Origin: a virus
Reading direction: 5' to 3' (one strand)
Virus record (IMG/VR): IMGVR_UViG_3300012009_000046
Location: 1-21,838 of that record
DNA length: 21,838 bases
The notes below the pieces were generated by a model. The model was not told the DNA's origin and made no database searches. It was given only the letters and a program-made list of their open reading frames with translations. The translations under genes and the position numbers were made by a program. Below, piece by piece: positions 3,990 to 15,458 of the stretch; the first letter of the stretch is position 1, and every line of letters begins with the position of its first letter.

Positions 3990-4643
3990 ATGCAATGCAC
4001 GGCGAAATCTAAACGAAGCGGTAAGCGGTGTCGTAACCACGCTGTAAAAGGCCGGGACAAATGCCGGATGCATGGCGGCACGCAACCACGCGGGCAGGCA
4101 TCGGCACAGTTCAAGCATGGCCGCTACAGCAAGCATATGCCGACGCGATTAGCGGAAAAGTACAAGGATGCTACGCTATCTGATGATAGCAATCTTTTGC
4201 AGGATAATATCAAGCTCCGCGAAACGTTCATCCGCGAACAACTCGAACGCCTCGACGATGCACCGGATAGCGTGCAGGTCTGGCAGTCTATACGTAAAGC
4301 ATTGGACGCTGGTAAACGCGCCATGAATAACGAGGACTACGGCGGTGTTGTGTTGGCATTTGAGGAAATGAGCCGGGTAACGGATGACCGCCTACTCTAT
4401 TATGAGGCAATGGACGACATCCGAACGAACCTAGCAGAACAGCGCAAAGACGTGCAAGCGATTGCAAACATCCAGTACAAAGGCGAAAGCGCGGTTAATG
4501 TCCAGCAACTCATGGCGTTCGTCGGTGCGTTGGTACATCTTATTCAAACTACCGTGACTAGTCGTGATGAACAAATACAACTTGCCAATGGGATTGATCG
4601 CCTCATCGGCGTTGACCAACGCAATACGGTCTCTTTCGAGTGA
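3990..4643 (+). CDS. terS: Terminase small subunit (zinc-binding type)
   Basis: This 217-aa protein has an N-terminal zinc-binding cluster (C3, C14, C25, H28) in a pattern that ends 'CRMHGGTQPRG', typical of a class of phage small terminases. The basic surface around 'SKRSGKRCRN' suits DNA recognition. The rest is predominantly helical (residues about 60-190), as expected for a ring-forming small subunit. It lies immediately before TerL, which supports the call. I chose ATG 3990 (GAGG seven bases upstream) over the in-frame GTG at 3906, because that GTG lies inside the terminator-2 stem and the family normally begins just before the first cysteine. The protein recognises the packaging site on phage DNA and loads TerL. 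Confidence 0.8.
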   Translation: MQCTAKSKRSGKRCRNHAVKGRDKCRMHGGTQPRGQASAQFKHGRYSKHMPTRLAEKYKDATLSDDSNLLQDNIKLRETFIREQLERLDDAPDSVQVWQSIRKALDAGKRAMNNEDYGGVVLAFEEMSRVTDDRLLYYEAMDDIRTNLAEQRKDVQAIANIQYKGESAVNVQQLMAFVGALVHLIQTTVTSRDEQIQLANGIDRLIGVDQRNTVSFE

Positions 4644-6045
4644 GATCAGAGACGCGCCCGACACAGATTCATACTCTCAATTTATAGACCCGGACGCGGT
4701 TTCATTCATCGAGGCCAACGTATACGACCCGGAAACGGGCGCACCACTCGTCGTTTATGACGAACAGCGCACGGTAATCGACACCATGACACATCGCACT
4801 GATGGCATGTTCAATTATTCAACATGGTTATGGTCACAGCCTAAAAAGTCGGGTAAAACAACGATCTGTGCAGGTCTTGCGCTGTGGTGGGCATGGCAGA
4901 TACCAAACGGGCAGGTATACGTCATCGGCAACGATCAGAAGCAGGCAGATAGTCGCCTGTTTCGCGTCATTGAATACGCTGTGAAACACCACCCCGTTAT
5001 GAAAGATCATGCGCGGGTTGTGCGTTACAAGATCGAACTCAGCAACGGGACGGTTATTGAGGCGTTGCCAGTTGACCCTACTGGGGAGGCTGGAAGCAAC
5101 CCGACCGCGATTATCTACACCGAAGCCTGGGGGTTTACCGGTAACAAGGCGGAGTTGATGTGGTCGGAGATGGCATTATCCCCGACGCGCAAAGGCCAGT
5201 CATTTATCCTGGTAGAAAGCTACGCGGGACACAAAGGGCAGTCTGTCATTTTGGAACGCCTGTATAACAATGTGGTGGATGAATCCAATGCGATTGATCC
5301 CGACCATGAGATTTACGCCAAGCCCGATGACGGCATAATCGCGTACTGGTGTACCCGTCGCGTAATGCCCTGGCAAAACGGGCCAATTGCAGACGAATAC
5401 TACCGTAACGAACGTCATCATAAGTTGCCGTCAGAGTACGACCGTCAGCATAACAATCGGTGGGCGGATAGTACCAACGTATTTATCACACAGTCTCAAT
5501 GGGATGCTTGTCTAGGTGAAATGCCGGAAGCGGTGGAAAGCCGGCGGTGGGTGATAGGTGTTGATGCGGCGGTAAGCGGTGATTGTTTTGCAATCGTTGC
5601 AACCACGTACTATGAAGGCAAGATTTATGTACCGCGTGTGTGGGTGTGGTACCCGCCGGAAGATGGCAAAATAGACTTTCGAGAACCTGATAAATTATTA
5701 CGTGATCTTATCGAACAGCGCAAGACCGATACCATTGTCTATGACCCATACCAGCTAGAAAAGCTTATGGCCGATTTGCGACGGGATAACCTAGCATGGA
5801 TTATCGAATTTAGTCAAGGTGCTGACAGATTGAAATCTGACAAACGCTTACGTGATAGCATCAGTCAGGAGCTACTAGTGCATAATGGCGATCCACTGTT
5901 GACTGAGCATGTCCTAAACGCTGATGCCAAAGTAGACAAAGACGAAACACGTCTTAGAATTGTCAAACGGCAAGAAAAGCTTAAAATTGACGCGGCAGTC
6001 GCTTTATCAATGGCGGCAGCGATAGCGGAGAGATACCAAATATGA
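4567..6045 (+). CDS. terL: Terminase large subunit
   Basis: This is a 492-aa packaging motor. Numbered from ATG 4567, the Walker A motif is SQPKKSGKTT (residues 90-99) and the Walker B strand is TAIIYTEAWG (180-189, E186). The second position is T-E where most relatives have D-E. The RNase-H-like nuclease domain shows its three acidic positions: D333 in 'GVDAAVSGD', D393 in 'VYDPYQ' and D475 in 'KIDAAVAL'. The protein pumps DNA into the prohead and cuts the concatemer. Its start overlaps TerS by about 77 bases with no clear ribosome site. GTG 4564, ATG 4567 or ATG 4588 are all possible, so the N-terminus is uncertain by a few residues. Confidence 0.95.
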   Translation: MNKYNLPMGLIASSALTNAIRSLSSEIRDAPDTDSYSQFIDPDAVSFIEANVYDPETGAPLVVYDEQRTVIDTMTHRTDGMFNYSTWLWSQPKKSGKTTICAGLALWWAWQIPNGQVYVIGNDQKQADSRLFRVIEYAVKHHPVMKDHARVVRYKIELSNGTVIEALPVDPTGEAGSNPTAIIYTEAWGFTGNKAELMWSEMALSPTRKGQSFILVESYAGHKGQSVILERLYNNVVDESNAIDPDHEIYAKPDDGIIAYWCTRRVMPWQNGPIADEYYRNERHHKLPSEYDRQHNNRWADSTNVFITQSQWDACLGEMPEAVESRRWVIGVDAAVSGDCFAIVATTYYEGKIYVPRVWVWYPPEDGKIDFREPDKLLRDLIEQRKTDTIVYDPYQLEKLMADLRRDNLAWIIEFSQGADRLKSDKRLRDSISQELLVHNGDPLLTEHVLNADAKVDKDETRLRIVKRQEKLKIDAAVALSMAAAIAERYQI

Positions 6046-8270
6046 CGCCACCGGACGCGGTATTACGTCAAACAATTGAAGATATTGACCCCGCGTCAGA
6101 GTATATCGGGAGCGGCGTTTTCGGTTTGACCTGGGGGCATGTGTCAAATATACCGTCCTGGGGTTCGCCACATCGGGCGGCGTATCTGCGTAAATTGTGG
6201 CACGATGCCAATAATACGTTGGTGATTGGTGCGCTCACAAATCTGATTGCCCGTGAGCAACAAACGCCCTGGGAGATCAGCGGGGGGCCACGATTAACAC
6301 CTCGCTTCCAAGCGATTTTGCAGAACGCCCAATACGGCGAAGGTTGGGATGCATTTAAGGAACGTCTATGGCAAGACTATTTAGGCCAGGACATCGGCGC
6401 GTTCATTCAGATCATTGGCCCTGGCAACCCGGACACACCGCTAACCCGTGCTATAACTGGCATCACAACATTAGATGCCTGCCGGTGTTATGTTACAGGC
6501 AATCCTGAATACCCGGTGTGGTATCAGCCGCATCGAAGCGGCGGCTTTGTCAAACTCCACGCATCGCGGGTAGTTCGTCTGGTAGATATGCCATCGCCTG
6601 ATCCGCGCTACAAGGGCCAGGGGCTGTGTGCGCTATCGCGTGCAATTGCCATTGCTGAGCGACAGATTATGGTCAGTAAGTTTTACACCGACAACCTGAG
6701 CGATAAGCCGACACAGGGGTTTCTGCATATTCCGGGCATGTCGTCTGCACAGTGGGAGGACATGGAGCGCAAGGCGGCGGTTATGCGAGATAGTAACGCG
6801 AACCAGTGGCTAAATAATCTGATGCCAATTTTGCAAGCTAATCAGGAGAGTAGCGCAAAAGTAACACTGATACCATTCGCTCAATTGCCTGAAGATTACC
6901 GTGTCGAGGCAGAGGTTCATCTGCTGGCATTAGCCATTCAGGATGATCCAACCGAGATCTGGCCGCTTACTGGTCAGGGGCTGAGTACCGGCAGTCAGTC
7001 ACAGGTACTCAATGCCAAAGGCAAAGTTCGGATGCTTGGCAAAATGCGGACGGTCATGGAGCGCACGACAAACAGACGTTTCCTTCCGCGTGCATTGGAG
7101 TTCCAATACAAACCGGACGATACCGAGCAGACCAAAACAGATGCCGAAGTCGCGCAACTTTGGGGTAATTTTGCACAGGCGCAGGTAGCGGCTGGTGTGT
7201 TGACGCCCCAGGCGGCACAACGCCTACTCGCTAACACCGTAGGCGCGGTTGAGGACGTACTTTTAGACGACGCCGGCCAGATACGCCTACCCGACGACGA
7301 TCCGAAGGAAGATCAGGAGGTAACTGGCACAGATGAGACACCGCTAGATACGCAATCGCAAGCCAGTTATAAGGCGATTGATTTCTCCCCGCCCCAGGGC
7401 GTCCGGCAAGCGGCGCGACGGTTTCTTGAATTGTACGAGGACGGGTGCGCGGGTGACGGATTAGAGCAAGCAACCGTCCGTTGGGCGCGTCGGATTGCGG
7501 CAGGTGAGAATGTATCACCGGAAAAAGCGCGACAGGGTAATCGCTGGTGGGGGCGCAACAGTCGTTTCCTAGAGGATTACGATGACCAATGCTCACCGAT
7601 GTACACCGCCGCTATGGGCTGGTTTGGTCGTCCCGGTCGGGCGTGGTTCCGATCGCTGGTGCGCCAGATGGACGCTGATGAAAGTAAATCCTACAAGACA
7701 TTGCAATCGGCCCGGATTGATTTCGAATTGGCGATGGAAGATTTTCTATCTGCGGCTGAAAATGGCGACATGGACAGGCGTCGGGCTGGTATTGTGTTAC
7801 GCGCTCTCATCAACCGTCACGGTAACGATACGTACCGCGAGGGCTTGGAGGCTGGTGGGGTTCGGGCAGTAGACATAAGCGACGATGACCTGGCAACCAT
7901 CCGGCGGATGGTTGCCAGACAATCACAGTACGTTACGTCCATGCTAAATGATCTATTTGCAGATAACATCACACCCGGTCAGTTGCAACAAAAAAGCACG
8001 CTATGGTTCAACAAGTCAATTTACCCGTTCTACACCGAGGGCTTACGATCTGCAGACCGCAACGGATATTACAGTTGGCGGTTGGGCAACACCGAAGATC
8101 ATTGCCGCGACTGCATAAATTTTAGCCGCAACCACATCCACCGTATGCGCGATTGGATACGTGCTGAGTGGGTGCCGAAATCGGGAAAGCTAGAGTGTGG
8201 CGGTTGGCAGTGTGATTGTTCGTTTGCGAAAGACAACGGGCCAGCGCGTGGCCGTTTTCCACGTAGATAG
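6042..8270 (+). CDS. Portal protein fused to an extra domain and a MuF-like head protein
   Basis: This 742-aa protein overlaps the TerL stop as ATGA. Residues about 20-430 are the portal, an HK97-type ring at the capsid vertex: a helical body with 'DNLSDKPTQGFLHIPG' and 'LLALAIQDDPTEIWPL', typical of this portal class. Residues about 446-547 (FSPPQGVRQAARRFLELYEDG .. ARRIAAGENVSPEKARQGN .. FGRPGRAWF) resemble a small domain otherwise seen attached to phage proteases and other head proteins. The C-terminal part (about 560-742) is a MuF-like minor head protein. It has a putative zinc site at H687, C688, C691, C719, C724 and C726 in 'HCRDC' and 'LECGGWQCDC'. Portal and MuF proteins are usually separate neighbours, so this is a fusion. 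The middle domain's function is unknown. Confidence 0.88.
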   Translation: MTPPDAVLRQTIEDIDPASEYIGSGVFGLTWGHVSNIPSWGSPHRAAYLRKLWHDANNTLVIGALTNLIAREQQTPWEISGGPRLTPRFQAILQNAQYGEGWDAFKERLWQDYLGQDIGAFIQIIGPGNPDTPLTRAITGITTLDACRCYVTGNPEYPVWYQPHRSGGFVKLHASRVVRLVDMPSPDPRYKGQGLCALSRAIAIAERQIMVSKFYTDNLSDKPTQGFLHIPGMSSAQWEDMERKAAVMRDSNANQWLNNLMPILQANQESSAKVTLIPFAQLPEDYRVEAEVHLLALAIQDDPTEIWPLTGQGLSTGSQSQVLNAKGKVRMLGKMRTVMERTTNRRFLPRALEFQYKPDDTEQTKTDAEVAQLWGNFAQAQVAAGVLTPQAAQRLLANTVGAVEDVLLDDAGQIRLPDDDPKEDQEVTGTDETPLDTQSQASYKAIDFSPPQGVRQAARRFLELYEDGCAGDGLEQATVRWARRIAAGENVSPEKARQGNRWWGRNSRFLEDYDDQCSPMYTAAMGWFGRPGRAWFRSLVRQMDADESKSYKTLQSARIDFELAMEDFLSAAENGDMDRRRAGIVLRALINRHGNDTYREGLEAGGVRAVDISDDDLATIRRMVARQSQYVTSMLNDLFADNITPGQLQQKSTLWFNKSIYPFYTEGLRSADRNGYYSWRLGNTEDHCRDCINFSRNHIHRMRDWIRAEWVPKSGKLECGGWQCDCSFAKDNGPARGRFPRR

Positions 8271-8279
8271 GAGAGTATT

Positions 8280-9554
8280 ATGGCAATCAGGATAGGCAGT
8301 ATTGTAAGTTGGAATGGTGGCGGCGATGAACCTACAATTGGCCGGGTAACGCGCATTAGCCCCAACCGCCCTATCGAGGTTCCAGGGTCTGATTTTACAC
8401 AGACGCCGGGGAGGGATGACCCGGCGGTTTTGATGCGGGTTGTGCGCGAGTCAGATGATGGCCTGGAGGACACAGATACATACGTAGGCCGGAGACTTTC
8501 AAACCTGACTGAGCGAAACCAACAGGGGGTTATTCGAAAAGCGGTAGCAGCGATTAAAAACCAATTTGTAAAAACGCCAGAGTTGCACCGCGCCACAATC
8601 AAAGCGGTGGCACCGGGGATATGGGTAGCCGCATATACCAATAATTTCCGGGACAAGCACAACGAAATTATCAGCGCGGCGGCGCATGATCGCTACATTG
8701 CACGCCTCAAAGCCGGCCTTGTCGATTACCCGGAGTTATGGCTGTGGCACACCAAAGGCACACGGCATGGGGAGGCAATGAGCATCGAGCGTTACGGCCA
8801 TATGATTATTGCGGTTGGGACGTTTGACGACACGCCGATGGGCCGTGCGGCGGAGCAATTTTACCGCACCGCAAAGGACATTCAACTATCACATGGTTTT
8901 TACCATCCATCGTATGACCCCGACGAAAACGGGGTTTATCACGATATTAACACGTTTGAAATCTCGTCATTGCCGGCTAATACAGCGGCAAATCCGTTTA
9001 CTAGTTTTGCATATATAGAGGAGAAGGAACAAATGAAAGAGTCACAACGCGCATTTATCCAAGCTGTTTTCGGAGAGGAAGCGGCCAGCAAGATTGAAGA
9101 AAGCGTGAAGTCTATTGAGCAGAGCGGCGACGAAATTAGAGACGCCGGTACTGCCTACAAGGACTTTGCCGATCTCACACAGGACGAACAACCAGCCAAC
9201 AAGGAAGCCAGCGAAGCGGATGTAAACGCCTTGGGTGCCAAGTTTGGCGAATTGTTCCAGGAGATCTTCGAAGCGCAAGCGTACCTGTCCGAAGAAACCG
9301 CAACTGTGAGCAAAGCGCTAAAGGGACTGGCTGGCAAGGTGGAAGCGGCTGTTAATCATCTGAACGCGCAAACGAAAGCGTTTGAAACTACGCTGAAATC
9401 GTTGAAGACCGAGGTTGAACTTGCACCGCGCAGTGTACAGGACGTTCAACCGACCGTAACCGATGAGGAAGCGGCCAAGTCGATTGAAGCACAGCAAGAA
9501 GTCGAGTATGACCCGATTTTTGGTGATATGAAAGTCCCGAAGGAGAGTAACTAA
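8280..9554 (+). CDS. Capsid maturation protease with scaffold domain
   Basis: This 424-aa protein starts at ATG 8280 after an AGGAGAG site. Residues about 1-75 look like a small SH3/Tudor-like barrel ('GSIVSWNGGGDEPTIGRVTRI .. DDPAVLMRVV'), as found ahead of some XkdF-type phage proteases. Residues about 100-245 are the protease: H157 in 'LWLWHT', a putative serine nucleophile S204 in 'LSHGF', and 'TFEISSLPANTAANP' near its end. Residues 252-424 are acidic and helical with heptad-like regions, a scaffold. The protease cuts the scaffold and trims the prohead during maturation. An in-frame internal start at 9033 probably makes the scaffold alone. It lies directly before the major capsid gene, as expected. 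Confidence 0.85.
   Translation: MAIRIGSIVSWNGGGDEPTIGRVTRISPNRPIEVPGSDFTQTPGRDDPAVLMRVVRESDDGLEDTDTYVGRRLSNLTERNQQGVIRKAVAAIKNQFVKTPELHRATIKAVAPGIWVAAYTNNFRDKHNEIISAAAHDRYIARLKAGLVDYPELWLWHTKGTRHGEAMSIERYGHMIIAVGTFDDTPMGRAAEQFYRTAKDIQLSHGFYHPSYDPDENGVYHDINTFEISSLPANTAANPFTSFAYIEEKEQMKESQRAFIQAVFGEEAASKIEESVKSIEQSGDEIRDAGTAYKDFADLTQDEQPANKEASEADVNALGAKFGELFQEIFEAQAYLSEETATVSKALKGLAGKVEAAVNHLNAQTKAFETTLKSLKTEVELAPRSVQDVQPTVTDEEAAKSIEAQQEVEYDPIFGDMKVPKESN
9033..9554 (+). CDS. Internal-start scaffold protein (in frame within the protease gene)
   Basis: ATG 9033 is in frame with the protease gene (its residue 252). It is preceded by an unusually purine-rich ribosome site, AGAGGAGAAGGA (9017-9028). 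The product would be 173 aa, starting MKESQRAFIQAVF. It is glutamate- and alanine-rich and helical, with 'VSKALKGLAGKVEAAV' and 'LKSLKTEVEL' as coiled-coil-like parts. Lambda does the same with C and Nu3. The excess free scaffold would assemble the capsid shell around it. The evidence is the ribosome site plus the domain boundary at exactly this point; expression is inferred. Confidence 0.6.
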   Translation: MKESQRAFIQAVFGEEAASKIEESVKSIEQSGDEIRDAGTAYKDFADLTQDEQPANKEASEADVNALGAKFGELFQEIFEAQAYLSEETATVSKALKGLAGKVEAAVNHLNAQTKAFETTLKSLKTEVELAPRSVQDVQPTVTDEEAAKSIEAQQEVEYDPIFGDMKVPKESN

Positions 9555-10864
9555 TGTTTACACCTGATCAGATTAAAGCATTGCAGGGATTAAGCTCTGC
9601 GTTCAAGGCCAACCCGCACGGCACCGGTGGTTTGTTTTCCGGTGGGCCAGAAGCCGAAATGCCGGTTTCTATTGAGAAGCCGTCCGACATTGCCGGGGCT
9701 TTTGCGCCGCGTCCATCAAACTTCCAGGATAGCATTGTAGAGGTTTTTACAAACATTACTGCCGCGACTGGAACTAACCCCGACGACAACTGCGGGACTC
9801 CGCCAGTAGCTGGTGATCTTGAGGTGGCGCGTCAAACGTTGCCTTTCGGATTGTTTTACATGGCAACGCAGACGATCAATATTACCAATGGCAACCTACG
9901 CCGGGATCGCACCGATCTGCCGCGCATCATTGAGAATGACGTGTTTGGGCCAATGGGTAATCCGTTTGTTCCAACTCCGCCCAACGGTCAAATTGACCCG
10001 AATACCCTTGTGGGAAATCGCTTTATGACATTCGGGCAAAACGCAGCAAATGCGTTTAGCTATGTTCATATTCAAGGCGATACGAGCAAGGCCCCGGCTG
10101 CTACCCGCTTAGGGTTTATTGATGAGTATGCCGGCCTAGATGCTCAGATCGCAACCGGTAAAACCGACTCGGTTAGCGGCGCGGCGGCTCCTGGATTGGA
10201 CAGTGTGGTAAACACGACCGGGACGACGCTAGGCGCAAATACCGTCGAGGACATTGTAGACGCTATCCGTACACTGCGTATCCGAGCCGATGAGGTTATG
10301 CTACCCGGCACGCGGTTTGAGTTAGTTGTACACCCACAACAAGAGACCGAACTCTATGACGTGTGGGCGTGTAACTTTGTAACCGTCAAATGCAACAATA
10401 CCGCTGGCGATCTCGATCTGATGACCATCGAAAATCGACGCAATGAGATGATGAACGGTCGGTATGTCATGGTTGATGGCATTCAAGTGCCAGTGCGTAA
10501 ATCCTGGGGCGTGGCAAATGGATTTAACGCCAGTGCCGGAACTAACACCAGTGACATTTACATCCTGCCGATCAACAACACCATGACCACATTTAATCGG
10601 TTTGAATTCCAGCCGATGGGGACAGGTGAAATGGTTGGGTTGAATATGGATAACATGTTCGATGTTCGCCCGGTAAACGGCGGTTTCTATTTGATGGGTG
10701 TTATCAAAAACGACCCGTACTGTCTGCAATACACATTCACTGGCCGTCATCGTCTGGTTCTTCGCTACCCGTTCCTGTGTGGGCGCGTTGATAATGTTAC
10801 CTACACCCCGCAAAGCCTGCGTGGGCCTGAGTTTGACGGCGGCAGCGTGACGGCGCGTACCTAA
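9554..10864 (+). CDS. Major capsid protein
   Basis: This 436-aa protein starts at ATG 9554, overlapping the protease stop (TAATG), with AGGAGAG six bases ahead. The gene order protease/scaffold then capsid, together with length, points to an HK97-fold major capsid protein. Features consistent with it are a central 'VEDIVDAIRTLRIRADEVMLPGTRFELVVHPQQ' region (about 233-265), like the spine helix and following strand of capsid proteins, and 'VDGIQVPVRKSWG' (about 311-323). The first ~60 residues are low in structure and may be trimmed. Hundreds of copies would form the head. I recognise no close named family, so fold assignment rests mostly on context. Confidence 0.85.
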   Translation: MFTPDQIKALQGLSSAFKANPHGTGGLFSGGPEAEMPVSIEKPSDIAGAFAPRPSNFQDSIVEVFTNITAATGTNPDDNCGTPPVAGDLEVARQTLPFGLFYMATQTINITNGNLRRDRTDLPRIIENDVFGPMGNPFVPTPPNGQIDPNTLVGNRFMTFGQNAANAFSYVHIQGDTSKAPAATRLGFIDEYAGLDAQIATGKTDSVSGAAAPGLDSVVNTTGTTLGANTVEDIVDAIRTLRIRADEVMLPGTRFELVVHPQQETELYDVWACNFVTVKCNNTAGDLDLMTIENRRNEMMNGRYVMVDGIQVPVRKSWGVANGFNASAGTNTSDIYILPINNTMTTFNRFEFQPMGTGEMVGLNMDNMFDVRPVNGGFYLMGVIKNDPYCLQYTFTGRHRLVLRYPFLCGRVDNVTYTPQSLRGPEFDGGSVTART

Positions 10865-11862
10865 TGTTGACCGTAGTCATACCGTATATTGACACGGATG
10901 CACATCTGGCAGAGCGTGCTATCCGTTCGGTAGAGGCGCAAACATTGACCTCTACCGCAATTGCGGTGCATGATAAAGACCGTCGCGGCCCACAATGGGC
11001 GCGTAATCATGGTTTGTGGCAGGCGGATACTCCGTTTGTCACATTCCTAGACGCGGATGACTGGATAGAGCCAACGTTCGCAGAGGAGATGATAGCGGCA
11101 TATCTGCCTAACCATTATGTCTATTGTGACTATTGGTATGGCAAAACATTGCGAAAGCTCAAAACACCAGCGCGATGCTATGATCGAGGCGTTGTCACAC
11201 GATTGATACGTACCGAAACAGCACGCGAAATTGGCGGGTTTGACGAAACGTTAAAACGCCTTGAGGACACTGAGTTTTGGTTACGCGCACGCTATCATGG
11301 CTTGTGCGCGTTACATGTCGATAAACCGTTATTGACATATTCTGCTGATGGAGCGCGGTCAACGCGACACAAAGACCGCGACAAACTAATGCAAGAATTA
11401 ATCCAGATGAGGGCAAAATATCTAATGGGATGCTGTGGAGGAAGCGCACGGGTGAATTATGCAATCGTAGGCGAAAAGCAAGAGGGCGATGTGTTAGCTA
11501 CTCCTACATGGTTTGGTAATCGCTCGTTTACTGGAACGGTTAGCGGTCGGGTGTACCCGCGTGCATCGCGTGGGCGCGGCGTGTGGGTAGACCCACGCGA
11601 CCTACAGGCGATGAACACGTTAACCGAACTGCCAAAACAGAAAAACATCGAAGAAACACCAGTTGAGGAACCGGAGCCTGTAGAGCATCTAGCACCGTTG
11701 AATGGTGTTGAACTTGAAGCGCTACCCGATGAGGACGAAATCAACGCTATGTATCGCAATGAACTAGACGAATTGGCACAGCGAATTGGCGTCTCAACTG
11801 ATGGCAACAAGCCCGATGTGCTTCAACGCATCCTAAACGCAATGCAGAGCGCACGCGGGTGA
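10864..11862 (+). CDS. Family-2 glycosyltransferase fused to a minor virion protein
   Basis: This 332-aa protein has three parts. Residues 1-185 are a GT-A glycosyltransferase: 'LTVVIPYIDTD', 'RAIRSVEAQT', the metal-binding D-A-D at 63-65 in 'FLDADDW', and the acceptor-loop 'GGFDE .. LEDTEFWLRA' (E134-E137). Residues 188 to about 245 (MGCCGGSARVNY .. GVWVDPRDLQAM) resemble small head-cluster proteins that start with MGCCGG. Residues about 285-330 (DELAQRIGVS .. KPDVLQRIL) look like a SAP/HeH-type helix-extension-helix. The gene overlaps the capsid stop (TAATG) without a ribosome site of its own, so it is translated with the capsid gene. It may transfer sugars to virion or host glycans. An internal ATG at 11425 could release the C-terminal part. 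Confidence 0.85.
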   Translation: MLTVVIPYIDTDAHLAERAIRSVEAQTLTSTAIAVHDKDRRGPQWARNHGLWQADTPFVTFLDADDWIEPTFAEEMIAAYLPNHYVYCDYWYGKTLRKLKTPARCYDRGVVTRLIRTETAREIGGFDETLKRLEDTEFWLRARYHGLCALHVDKPLLTYSADGARSTRHKDRDKLMQELIQMRAKYLMGCCGGSARVNYAIVGEKQEGDVLATPTWFGNRSFTGTVSGRVYPRASRGRGVWVDPRDLQAMNTLTELPKQKNIEETPVEEPEPVEHLAPLNGVELEALPDEDEINAMYRNELDELAQRIGVSTDGNKPDVLQRILNAMQSARG

Positions 11863-12158
11863 ATTATCTACTGCTAGCATTAGCTACTTATCGACTATCC
11901 TATATGCTAGTTTATGAGGCTGGACCGTTTCATATATTTAGCCGCGTGCGCCTGTGGGTAAAGGCGGGTGAATACGATTGCATAGAAAACGGCAGTAATA
12001 GTGTGCTATGCTGTATATGGTGTACGTCGGTTTGGGCAGCTATTGCACTTTACGCGCTATCGTTTGCGCCCTGGGGTGTGCATGTTATCGCGGTGCTAGC
12101 GATAAGCGGTGCGGCGATTATTATACATAATATTGTAAGGAGGTTGACCAATGACTGA
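11859..12158 (+). CDS. DUF1360 family membrane protein
   Basis: This 99-aa protein starts at GTG 11859, overlapping the previous stop as GTGA. It shows the DUF1360 pattern: 'LATYRLSYML', then 'GPFHIFSRVRLW', then a cysteine motif 'CCIWCTSVWAA' at about 51-61, then a hydrophobic helix (about 66-90). Two to three membrane spans are likely (about 2-18, 55-75, 76-92). The family occurs widely in phages in just this position between head and tail genes, but its function is not established; a holin-like or envelope role has been considered. It overlaps the next gene by 8 bases. Confidence 0.85.
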   Translation: MNYLLLALATYRLSYMLVYEAGPFHIFSRVRLWVKAGEYDCIENGSNSVLCCIWCTSVWAAIALYALSFAPWGVHVIAVLAISGAAIIIHNIVRRLTND

Positions 12159-12402
12159 TGACACACAACCAATCCCGCCGCTTGATGATGTGGTTGAAGA
12201 ACAGCCAAAAAAAACGAAGCGGTCAAAGCCGAAGAAGGCCACTGTGAGCCTGGAATGCATCGCACTATATCAACGGCGCGGCGCGGTTAAAGGCAGTTCG
12301 GGGCGTCGGTATAAGTTCGTTCCGGGCCAATTGCTAGAGGTTCACCCGGACGATGTAGAGCAGTTGCTGAAGGATGATATATGGCAATCAGTCGAAAGTT
12401 AG
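12151..12402 (+). CDS. Small connector-region protein, unknown
   Basis: This 83-aa protein starts after a consensus AAGGAGG site. The first 30 residues are a disordered, acidic then lysine-rich stretch (VEEQPKKTKRSKPKK). The remainder (about 33-83) reads as a small beta domain: 'VSLECIALYQRRGAVKG', 'SGRRYKFVPGQLLEVHPDDV', 'EQLLKDDIW'. Proteins of this size and shape, with 'PG..leV...d...Ll', are common after capsid genes in siphophages and are presumed head-tail connection components. It overlaps the next gene by 22 bases. Confidence 0.7.
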   Translation: MTDDTQPIPPLDDVVEEQPKKTKRSKPKKATVSLECIALYQRRGAVKGSSGRRYKFVPGQLLEVHPDDVEQLLKDDIWQSVES

Positions 12403-13451
12403 CAGGCGATTACCTGGAAGCCTGGCGTTCTATAATGAATGAGGATATATGGCGATTTAATCAGGTATCAGGCGCGGGTATACCCGACATTGCCGAAGGT
12501 GTGTACATCCAGAGCGAACGCGAGTATATCGCAAACGCGCTAAATATCGCAAAAAACACAATGGTTAACTGGTTAGGCTACAATCTGAGGCCAGAATATA
12601 CCCACCGGGAGTTGGTTAAGATTCCGGCAACCGGCAGTCTGCGTAACATGGTATTCCAGACTAAAAAGCGTCGGTTACAGAGTATTGGTGTGCGTACCAC
12701 ATCGTTAATCGAGGCAGATCGTAGAGTGGTTTACGCGGCGTTCGGTTCAACTGGAATTCCCGACGTTGCTACAATGACAATATCGTTGTCAGTTTCGCCT
12801 GATGAGGTCGGGTTGTTTTTCCGTGTCGATGATGGAGCGACCGATGCGGGTAACATCTTGTATCAGGTACTACCGCTGGACATCACCAGCGATGGATCAA
12901 CGCTGAAAATTATAGGTCATCGGTCATTGTTTGTCCTCCCGGCGAATATCTGGCAGAGACCCTATGAAAATGACCGGAACCTGGAGCGGCGAGTGGGCAA
13001 CACGAAAGATCTTCGAGACTTTGTGCAATTTGTTGATGTATATCGTGTTTACCCTGATAGTACCCAGGCGGTTGTTTTGCAATACGATAACGGCAACGGT
13101 TGCCAACCGACCGAACGCTACGCAGAGGCGGAAATTATCGATAGCGACCTGGGCTATTGGCGCATTCGTAACACGCGCTACGGTGTTCCATCGCGGATGT
13201 ACATTTCGTATCTATCTGGCGAAAGTATGGAAAACGGCAGAATGCAATCCGATTTAGCAACTGCCATGACACGCTTTGCTAACGTCGAAATGCCCTACCG
13301 CCCGCTAAATCTATTTGATCGCGGCGGCATGTTTGAGCGTGACAACGAAGTCGAGAGCATCGCGCAAAATTTGCAGGCTAACCCGTTCGGTGTTTACAAA
13401 GGCCATTACGCCGCGTGGAAGGTCGTGCAAGCGAGGCGATCGTATGCCTAG
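12381..13451 (+). CDS. Putative neck/connector protein (356 aa)
   Basis: The start is at ATG 12381 with AAGGA seven bases ahead. The N-terminal 60 residues are helical (AGDYLEAWRSIMNEDIWRFN), and the remainder is rich in predicted beta strands (about 85-290). No motif is recognised. Location between the capsid region and a gp10-like tail completion gene argues for a head-tail connector or adaptor. It is long for that role, since most such proteins are 100-200 aa, so it may combine several functions. Function is inferred from position only. Confidence 0.6.
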   Translation: MAISRKLAGDYLEAWRSIMNEDIWRFNQVSGAGIPDIAEGVYIQSEREYIANALNIAKNTMVNWLGYNLRPEYTHRELVKIPATGSLRNMVFQTKKRRLQSIGVRTTSLIEADRRVVYAAFGSTGIPDVATMTISLSVSPDEVGLFFRVDDGATDAGNILYQVLPLDITSDGSTLKIIGHRSLFVLPANIWQRPYENDRNLERRVGNTKDLRDFVQFVDVYRVYPDSTQAVVLQYDNGNGCQPTERYAEAEIIDSDLGYWRIRNTRYGVPSRMYISYLSGESMENGRMQSDLATAMTRFANVEMPYRPLNLFDRGGMFERDNEVESIAQNLQANPFGVYKGHYAAWKVVQARRSYA

Positions 13452-13959
13452 CAGACGTGTACGCTCAACACTGAGGCGCGAACTCATCCAGCAGAGCGAG
13501 GGTATGAAGCGCGAGATTTTAACCGAGTTAAATAATATCGGTTCGGACATGCGCGATTATTACCAGGACGTGACGGCCTCATGGAAAACGAAAACGACGT
13601 TCAATGTTTACCTGAAGGTGACGCCAGAGCTTATCAGCGTTTACGTTGACCCGAAAAGCGATATATTCCGTTATGTTGATGAGGGAACTGGACAACGGGC
13701 CGGCGGGAGTGCCTATATCATTAGGCCAAAGCGACCAGGCTACCCGTTACGGTTTCGCGGTGGGTACAACGCACGAACGCAACCCGTCGCACGATATGAT
13801 GTAGGCGACGGTACATCAAGCGGGAATTACGTCAGTACCTATGAGGTATTGCATCCAGGCATTACGCCGCGTGAATTTACAAAAACCGCACAGGAAAACA
13901 TCAAGCGAAGGTTCAAACGTGATATTGAAAATGCGCTACGGCGCGGAGCGAGGAGATAG
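13444..13959 (+). CDS. HK97 gp10-like tail completion protein
   Basis: This 172-aa protein (171 without the stop) starts at ATG 13444, with GAGG seven bases ahead and an 8-base overlap with the previous gene. It has an N-terminal helix (about 2-34, 'LRRELIQQSEGMKREILTEL'), then strands around 'TTFNVYLKVTPELISVYV', then 'FRYVDEGTGQRAGGSAYIIRP', and a helical end 'TKTAQENIKRRFKRDI'. The 'WVdeGTg.' pattern with a terminal 'a..n...rf...i..al' helix is typical of HK97 gp10-type proteins. These attach and complete the tail at the neck. The weak point is low overall conservation in this family. Confidence 0.75.
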   Translation: MPSRRVRSTLRRELIQQSEGMKREILTELNNIGSDMRDYYQDVTASWKTKTTFNVYLKVTPELISVYVDPKSDIFRYVDEGTGQRAGGSAYIIRPKRPGYPLRFRGGYNARTQPVARYDVGDGTSSGNYVSTYEVLHPGITPREFTKTAQENIKRRFKRDIENALRRGARR

Positions 13960-13961
13960 CA

Positions 13962-15458
13962 ATGAGTAATTATTGGAATAATGGCCGCGAAAATACAGCG
14001 GTCGATATTCGTGTTAATGGGCCGGGTAATCCCTGGCAAATTTTAGATCTTGAGGCTAGCGTGGGTGCAACCAGTGGCGGTCAGCAAGGCGTTGAAAGTG
14101 ACTGGCGGCGGTCGGCCTATGGCGGCAGCGAGTACATCGGTGGACGCAAAACGGGCAACCCGGCGCGGGTAACCTACAACTTAATGACACGCATTACCGC
14201 GTCTAATTTCATTCGTGGTTTGCTGCGCGAAAGTAACAGACGACCGGGGGATTGTGAGCGAAACGGCTATGTTGATATTCGTGTCCGCCAGCGTTGCGGC
14301 GATCAACGCGACTTGACCTCATACACCGAGGCTATTTCGTTGCTCGATAGCACAACAACTGGAACAAGCACCGATAATAATCTGGCGAACAATTCCGAAG
14401 GCGACGACCTCAAACTCATGACACAGGAAGCCATGAGCGCGGGGTTGAGAGGCAAGCTCAAGAAATTGGTACGGTCAGACATCTCCGCTAGTGTGACTGC
14501 ACAGGCGATTAATGCGGTGGCGTATCGGTTTGGTAGCGAATGGTGGATTGCAACAGATGGCATCGCCAGTCCGGCTAGCCTGCCAGAGGTATTGTACAGC
14601 ACCGACGACGGCGCAACGTGGAGTACAGCCAATACCAATACCACAATTTCGGCAGCTACGGCTGGTGACAATTGTACATCGCTGATTATCGTTGGCGGGT
14701 ATTTGGTGGCGGCCACTGATAGCGGTGTTTGCTACGCCCGGATTAACGATGTTAAAAACGACGTCGCCAGCGCATGGACGCTAGCGGCAGAGGCGAATAG
14801 TTGGTCAGATTTTCCGACCGCGCTTCACTCGACTGATAACGGCACAATTTGGGGCGCGGGCGCAAGCGGTCACATTTTCCGCTCTACTGGTGGCCCATTT
14901 GCGTTTGAAATCGCAGACGACGCCGGGGCCACATCAAATGATCTGGTTAGCATCACTAGCACTAACGATGATCTGGTCTGGTTCGGTGGCGCGAGTGGTA
15001 CGCTGGTGCGCTACCGTCGCGGGGTGTTTGCTACGGTAGCAGTGGCTAGTGTTAGCGACGAGTTGAGCGTTGTTCGTGCGCCATATGGACGCAACGACGA
15101 ACTAATCGTTGGCACCGATGGCGGAGAGGTTTGGGCGACCCGTGATGCAAACGCTAGCACACCGACGTTCATCGAACGCACGTTTGATGGTAGCGGCGCG
15201 GGTTCGATCACAGACATTCAATTCGCCGGGTGGAATGGCGATGTGATGTTTGTCATCCAGACCAATGTTTCCTCGCAGTCTCGAGTATTGCGTGATCTGT
15301 CCGGCGGTGCGCTTGGCGGCGATGTGGAGATCATCGGCACCTATACCGATCCTATTAACGCAGGCATTAATCAGATAGCCATCGCAAATCAGAATACGCT
15401 GATGGCAGTTGGTGAGCCTTCCGGCGGTCAGGGCTATATTGAGTTTGTGACATACTAA
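13962..15458 (+). CDS. Tail tube protein fused to an Asp-box beta-propeller
   Basis: This 498-aa protein starts after an AGGAGAT site. Residues 1 to about 165 appear to be the tail tube domain (beta-rich, then an alpha/loop region around 'EAISLLDSTTTG'). Residues about 180-498 are a repetitive beta structure with Asp-box motifs: 'YSTDDGATW' (212-220), 'LHSTDNGTIW' (288-297) and 'VGTDGGEVW' (383-391). Each has the S/G-T-D-x-G-x-x-W pattern of sialidase and YCF48-type propellers. About six or seven blades fit the length. The propeller would project from the tube and may bind sugars or stabilise the tail. Its place before the chaperone and tape measure genes supports a major tail protein. Confidence 0.8.
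   Translation: MSNYWNNGRENTAVDIRVNGPGNPWQILDLEASVGATSGGQQGVESDWRRSAYGGSEYIGGRKTGNPARVTYNLMTRITASNFIRGLLRESNRRPGDCERNGYVDIRVRQRCGDQRDLTSYTEAISLLDSTTTGTSTDNNLANNSEGDDLKLMTQEAMSAGLRGKLKKLVRSDISASVTAQAINAVAYRFGSEWWIATDGIASPASLPEVLYSTDDGATWSTANTNTTISAATAGDNCTSLIIVGGYLVAATDSGVCYARINDVKNDVASAWTLAAEANSWSDFPTALHSTDNGTIWGAGASGHIFRSTGGPFAFEIADDAGATSNDLVSITSTNDDLVWFGGASGTLVRYRRGVFATVAVASVSDELSVVRAPYGRNDELIVGTDGGEVWATRDANASTPTFIERTFDGSGAGSITDIQFAGWNGDVMFVIQTNVSSQSRVLRDLSGGALGGDVEIIGTYTDPINAGINQIAIANQNTLMAVGEPSGGQGYIEFVTY

Follow-up and report, generated by a model that had tools for sequence, protein, structure and literature searches.

Why would a phage encode a glycosyltransferase in one reading frame with a small protein of its head region, immediately behind its presumed capsid gene? 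The question is raised by a 21,838-nt virus record, analysed here over its whole length (the window), whose source, judged by its genes, is a tailed phage. A single open reading frame of the window (10864-11862, plus strand, 332 aa) joins a glycosyltransferase (GT) domain to a small head-region protein, and the gene order around it is terminase large subunit, portal with a MuF-like end, protease-like gene, presumed capsid gene, fusion, DUF1360. The same fusion of a GT to a short conserved core is found on three other virus contigs, L002, L019 and L017, with 52%, 37% and 33% identity, respectively. The features of the window on which the analysis relies are the following:

4564-6045 (+): terminase large subunit (phrog_9, E 9e-52)
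6042-8270 (+): portal with a C-terminal MuF-like domain (phrog_146 portal, E 2e-8; homologues in all three relatives)
8280-9554 (+): presumed prohead protease/scaffold (homologue in L002 and synteny; size and position in L017 and L019)
9554-10864 (+): presumed major capsid protein, candidate acceptor (after the protease-like gene; homologues in L002, L017 and L019)
10864-11424 (+): compact GT2 glycosyltransferase domain, residues 1-187 (PF00535, phrog_14775; motifs invariant in four fusions)
11405-11427 (+): possible internal ribosome site, GATGAGGG and the ATG at 11425 (Shine-Dalgarno-like, 11 nt upstream of the start codon)
11425-11601 (+): MGCCG...VDPRD core, residues 188-246 (about 59 aa, two invariant cysteines)
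11602-11859 (+): variable linker and weak SAP/HeH-like helical end, residues 247-332 (weak SAP hits; HeH hits in L002)
11859-12158 (+): DUF1360 gene (PF07098, E 1.5e-6; downstream border of the slot in the window and in the contig of L017)

The preliminary description of this locus had its layout right: the coordinates of the reading frame, the DAD at residues 63-65 and the EDTE at residues 134-137 are as it claimed, its MGCCGG segment lies at residues 188-193, and the ATG of the fusion gene overlaps the stop codon with which the presumed major capsid gene ends (TAATG). It had also called the gene translationally coupled to the capsid gene. Here the overlap itself stands, and coupling is probable because the ATG/TAA overlap is accompanied by little Shine-Dalgarno signal at the start of the fusion gene.

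The upstream neighbour, at 9554-10864, is presumed to be the major capsid gene on the basis of position and synteny. Its product has no match in Pfam, PHROGs, the PDB or 50,697 phage records, and its AlphaFold model, built from a two-row alignment, has a pLDDT of 32; by sequence, it would represent an undescribed capsid family. Likewise, the presumed protease/scaffold gene matches no curated family. We also note that the MuF-like domain of the portal (6042-8270) contains a cysteine motif, ECGGWQCDC, which is common to otherwise distant phages (L008-L013), and that a 498-aa tail-side protein (13962-15458) gives weak matches to BNR/YCF48 beta-propeller-like families.

The N-terminal half of the fusion is, by its sequence, a GT2 domain, as the preliminary description had proposed. 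It matches Glycos_transf_2 (PF00535) at E 5.3e-10, with 39.9 bits against a curated cut-off of 23.3, and the other three fusions also score above this cut-off. All four have phrog_14775 as their best PHROG match (E 9e-11 for the window), and when the four are combined into one profile, its matches include solved glycosyltransferases, aligned across the DxD and ED regions (6p61, E 2e-6; 9jma, E 3e-5). D37, R47-N48, D63-A64-D65-D66 and E134-D135-T136 are invariant in all four fusions, and both DAD 63-65 and ED 134-135 align with other phage GTs. The GT domain of the fusion shares with the GT-A fold enzymes of PF00535 the DxD, the ED of the catalytic base and the donor Asp, and differs from them in its compact size (187 aa) and in its attachment to a head-cluster core. 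A chance motif as the source of the GT call is ruled out by the Pfam and PHROG matches together with the conservation. One further candidate, a GT match in Pseudomonas phage Y4, was rejected as a relative of the fusion, as it belongs to a larger multi-GT locus without the core.

Compared with larger GT2 enzymes, about 20-30 residues are missing after the donor-binding Asp, as might be expected if the domain were a catalytically inert GT fold that decorates the head for structural reasons or to bind glycans. We consider this very improbable: D37, the DxD and the ED are invariant in all four fusions, and the same compact form is present in standalone phage GTs of phrog_14775, namely gp106 of Streptomyces phage Zuko and gp169 of Arthrobacter phage Atuin (about 30-36% local identity). 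The GT half is thus probably an active enzyme. Unlike the fusion, the Zuko and Atuin proteins lack the core and are encoded beside other GTs or a methyltransferase, not beside head genes.

Whether the joining of the two parts is genuine was assessed through its relatives. L002, a contig of 6.9 kb found by protein search of IMG/VR, repeats the gene order of the window from terminase through portal, protease-like and capsid genes to the fusion; its fusion (324 aa) aligns without gaps to that of the window through the GT and the core, with 3 nt between the capsid and fusion genes. A DNA pattern describing the core (ATGGG.TGYTGYGG followed by V-D-x-R-D) yielded the fusions of L017 (345 aa, from a contig of 52 kb) and L019 (363 aa); in both, a homologous capsid gene lies upstream and is separated from the fusion by small genes. 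The position directly after the capsid gene, as first described, therefore holds for the window and L002, but not for L017 and L019. The consensus of the core, MGCCG...W.GN...G...GR.YPR...VD.RD, is invariant in the four fusions in its MGCCG and in the whole W.GN...G...GR.YPR...VD.RD stretch. Because the search pattern demanded only MGCCG and VDxRD, the GT half and the rest of the core constitute independent support.

Two circumstances that can be judged from sequence had been named in advance as speaking against the interpretation of the preliminary description, namely related phages with the two parts as separate genes and a frame error here, and the loss of catalytic residues in homologues. 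Neither was seen; the fusion is intact and the catalytic motifs are preserved in three diverged relatives. A frame error or assembly chimera is ruled out by four independent contigs that carry the fusion with no stop inside. Between the window and L002 the GT half (60% identity) and the core (58%) are, with the terminase (55%), among the most conserved stretches, above the portal (48%) and the capsid protein (43%). Synonymous sites are saturated, with pS of about 0.7-0.9, too strongly for a dN/dS value to be given, while pN is 0.27-0.46 in the GT and core, and pN is well below pS in both parts for all pairs of the four fusions. As pS is saturated while pN stays in this range, the sequences are those of an old fusion under purifying selection. 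The fusion also seems to be rare in what we could search: scans of contigs with the fusion and core alignments gave no match (back-translated patterns reach near relatives only), terminase and capsid alignment searches returned L002 as the sole find, and the core was not found in the MuF-related contigs L008-L013, several of which are short. The GT fusion is, therefore, real, conserved and uncommon, and it is its function that we infer.

Many phage GTs act on host glycans, and PHROGs class phrog_14775 as moron/host takeover. The enzyme could accordingly be a modifier of the host surface, involved in superinfection exclusion or serotype change, that became fused to the core without any functional link to the particle. 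Four conserved fusions inside a late head module argue against this, and a functionless fusion is unlikely because the GT and core have been conserved while synonymous divergence became saturated. We give this explanation only a slender chance.

The neighbourhood of the fusion in the relatives points instead to the particle. In the contig of L017, the slot between the capsid gene and a DUF1360/connector-like gene contains, besides the fusion, two further sugar enzymes:

L027:7745-10883, contig IMGVR_UViG_3300037297_000097: 606-aa GT2 + GT4-like enzyme and NDP-sugar epimerase, between the capsid gene and DUF1360/connector

The 606-aa protein combines GT2 and GT4-like (Glyco_trans_1_2) domains, and the epimerase/dehydratase (362 aa, E 4e-41) lies directly before DUF1360. 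L019 has an equivalent of the 606-aa GT, 581 aa long and encoded one gene downstream of the fusion. In both the window and the contig of L017, the fusion lies between the capsid gene and DUF1360. By its gene content, the slot in L017 appears to be a glycosylation cassette lying within the head module, which argues for a late, particle-related role, and glycosylation of the particle gains support because a second GT and an NDP-sugar epimerase share the slot in relatives. No second GT or NDP-sugar epimerase is present within the 21.8 kb of the window, and no further glycan genes were found in the short contig L002. As the window has the fusion only, the host, or genes beyond the ends of the record, would have to supply the sugar donor.

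Two observations were made beside this analysis. Contig L012 contains a sugar-type block (8983-13183) between a MuF-type head gene and a protease-capsid gene, in which we recognise by eye a GT2-like protein, an FkbM-like methyltransferase and a dTDP-sugar epimerase-like protein, apparently another glycan cassette in a head module; its protease and capsid protein are apparently fused in one 628-aa frame (13292-15178). DUF1360 follows the fusion in the window and the epimerase in the contig of L017, and is near an MGCCG gene on contig L018; because of these positions, it may belong to a head-completion module.

On balance we favour a head-tethered GT that would glycosylate the capsid, or some other protein of the virion, while the particle is assembled, an explanation that we regard as reasonably probable. 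The compact GT2 domain would take a nucleotide sugar, host-derived in the window and perhaps partly phage-made in L017, and would transfer the sugar to a protein of the virion, for which the product of the adjacent major capsid gene and the core itself are the likeliest candidates. Docking of the enzyme, on the shell of the capsid or on an intermediate of its assembly, would probably be the task of the C-terminal core and tail. In L017 and L019, the second, two-domain GT encoded beside the fusion would extend the glycan. From sequence we infer the enzymatic activity, the acceptor, the docking by the core, the presence in the particle and the core-only product considered below.

The docking part is the least familiar. 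The core is 47-66% identical among the four phages and has no convincing match in PHROGs, Pfam or 50,697 phage records, where matches at E>0.3 are to lysins, helicases and similar proteins; since it is without a characterised relative, its label as a virion protein rests on its position. The tail is poorly conserved among the four fusions, except between L017 and L019. Of the SAP/HeH-like end that the preliminary description had proposed, weak matches remain in the window (SAP_new25, E 0.012; SAP, E 0.034, 14.2 bits against a cut-off of 23.9), with better ones in L002 (HeH, E 8e-5, 22.7 bits against a cut-off of 28.9; PHROG families down to 6e-9). No SAP or HeH profile match exceeds its curated cut-off in the window or L002, and in L017 and L019 such an end is absent or unrecognisable. 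Structure prediction of the three parts, as had been proposed, was informative for one of them: AlphaFold with a two-sequence alignment gives a confident model only for the helices at the C-terminus (around residues 281-330, pLDDT about 80; predicted at 290-295, 298-307 and 316-331), but none that is usable for the GT and core, where pLDDT is mostly under 50. In streptococcal phages, HeH/SAP-type small genes directly follow the capsid gene. Those of Streptococcus phages vB_Sags-UPM1 and Javan264 (HeH/LEM-SAP proteins of 84-95 aa) have the same post-capsid position and the same type of C-terminus as the fusion, but neither a GT nor an MGCCG core. Because these genes occupy the post-capsid position, a head-slot origin of the core and tail would fit by analogy.

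SAP/HeH-type domains bind nucleic acid, and the end of the fusion might therefore bind DNA, so that the GT would add sugars to modified bases of the phage genome. GTs of phages that act on DNA are indeed known (Pyle et al. 2024, as cited in PMC12619734). Against this, the SAP-like end is missing from L017 and L019, the gene belongs to the head module and is accompanied there by further sugar enzymes in relatives, and no gene of the thymidylate synthase/hydroxymethylase type was found in the window or in the contigs of L017 and L019, which are possibly fragments. A search for Tet/JBP proteins was positive in no control and is hence uninformative on base modification. Glycosylation of the phage DNA thus seems improbable to us.

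The head-tethered GT is compatible with a second reading of the gene, in which it yields two products: the full-length fusion, translated in coupling with the capsid gene, and a shorter core-tail protein, initiated at the internal ATG, which would be the real head component. A Met is invariant at the junction of GT and core in all four fusions, and a core-only product is possible because Shine-Dalgarno-like purine-rich stretches precede it in all four genes, 9-12 nt upstream. Their pairing amounts to -6.1 kcal/mol in the window, -7.7 in L002, -5.7 in L017 and -11.6 in L019, where the signal is best (AGGAGG), with a combined p of about 0.001 that is post hoc and from a model that leaves codon use outside. 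The signal of L017 is weak, however, and a spacing of 9-12 nt is long. Contig L018 encodes a possible standalone 67-aa MGCCG protein near its DUF1360 gene, which may hint at an unfused form of the core; it counts for no more than a hint, since MGCCG and VDxRD were already required by the pattern that found it. We hold the two-product reading tentatively, as a possibility somewhat short of probable. Further than this, one may imagine particles that carry, or are built around, a capsid-docked GT made in step with the capsid protein, with the shell glycosylated during assembly and a core-only form from the internal start setting the stoichiometry of the enzyme. This combined picture we find rather unlikely.

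Finally, we placed the fusion in the context of known phage glycosylation. Glycosylation of tailed-phage virions has come to be known only recently, and Freeman and colleagues reportedly described it in 2023 for mycobacteriophages (Che8, Rita). With their phage-encoded GTs and capsid glycans, these phages are among the closest known counterparts of the system proposed for the window. In mycobacteriophages, phage-encoded glycosylation affects the capsid and the tail tube (PMC11256854, PMC12619734), and the putative GTs are encoded by genes of their own close to the end of the genome (PMC11256854), in contrast to the one GT of the window that is fused to a head-slot protein. In a limited literature search, we found no description of a fusion between a GT and a head-cluster protein. 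By way of a working classification, we file the fusion as a variant of the phage virion-glycosylation enzymes, and its genomic setting suggests that phages with the fusion may sugar-coat their own particles. If the head-tethered GT is true, tethering to a head-slot protein would explain how glycosyltransferases find the capsid, and this fusion, conserved over deep divergence and accompanied by further sugar enzymes in relatives, would provide a directly testable model of how phages build a glycan coat.
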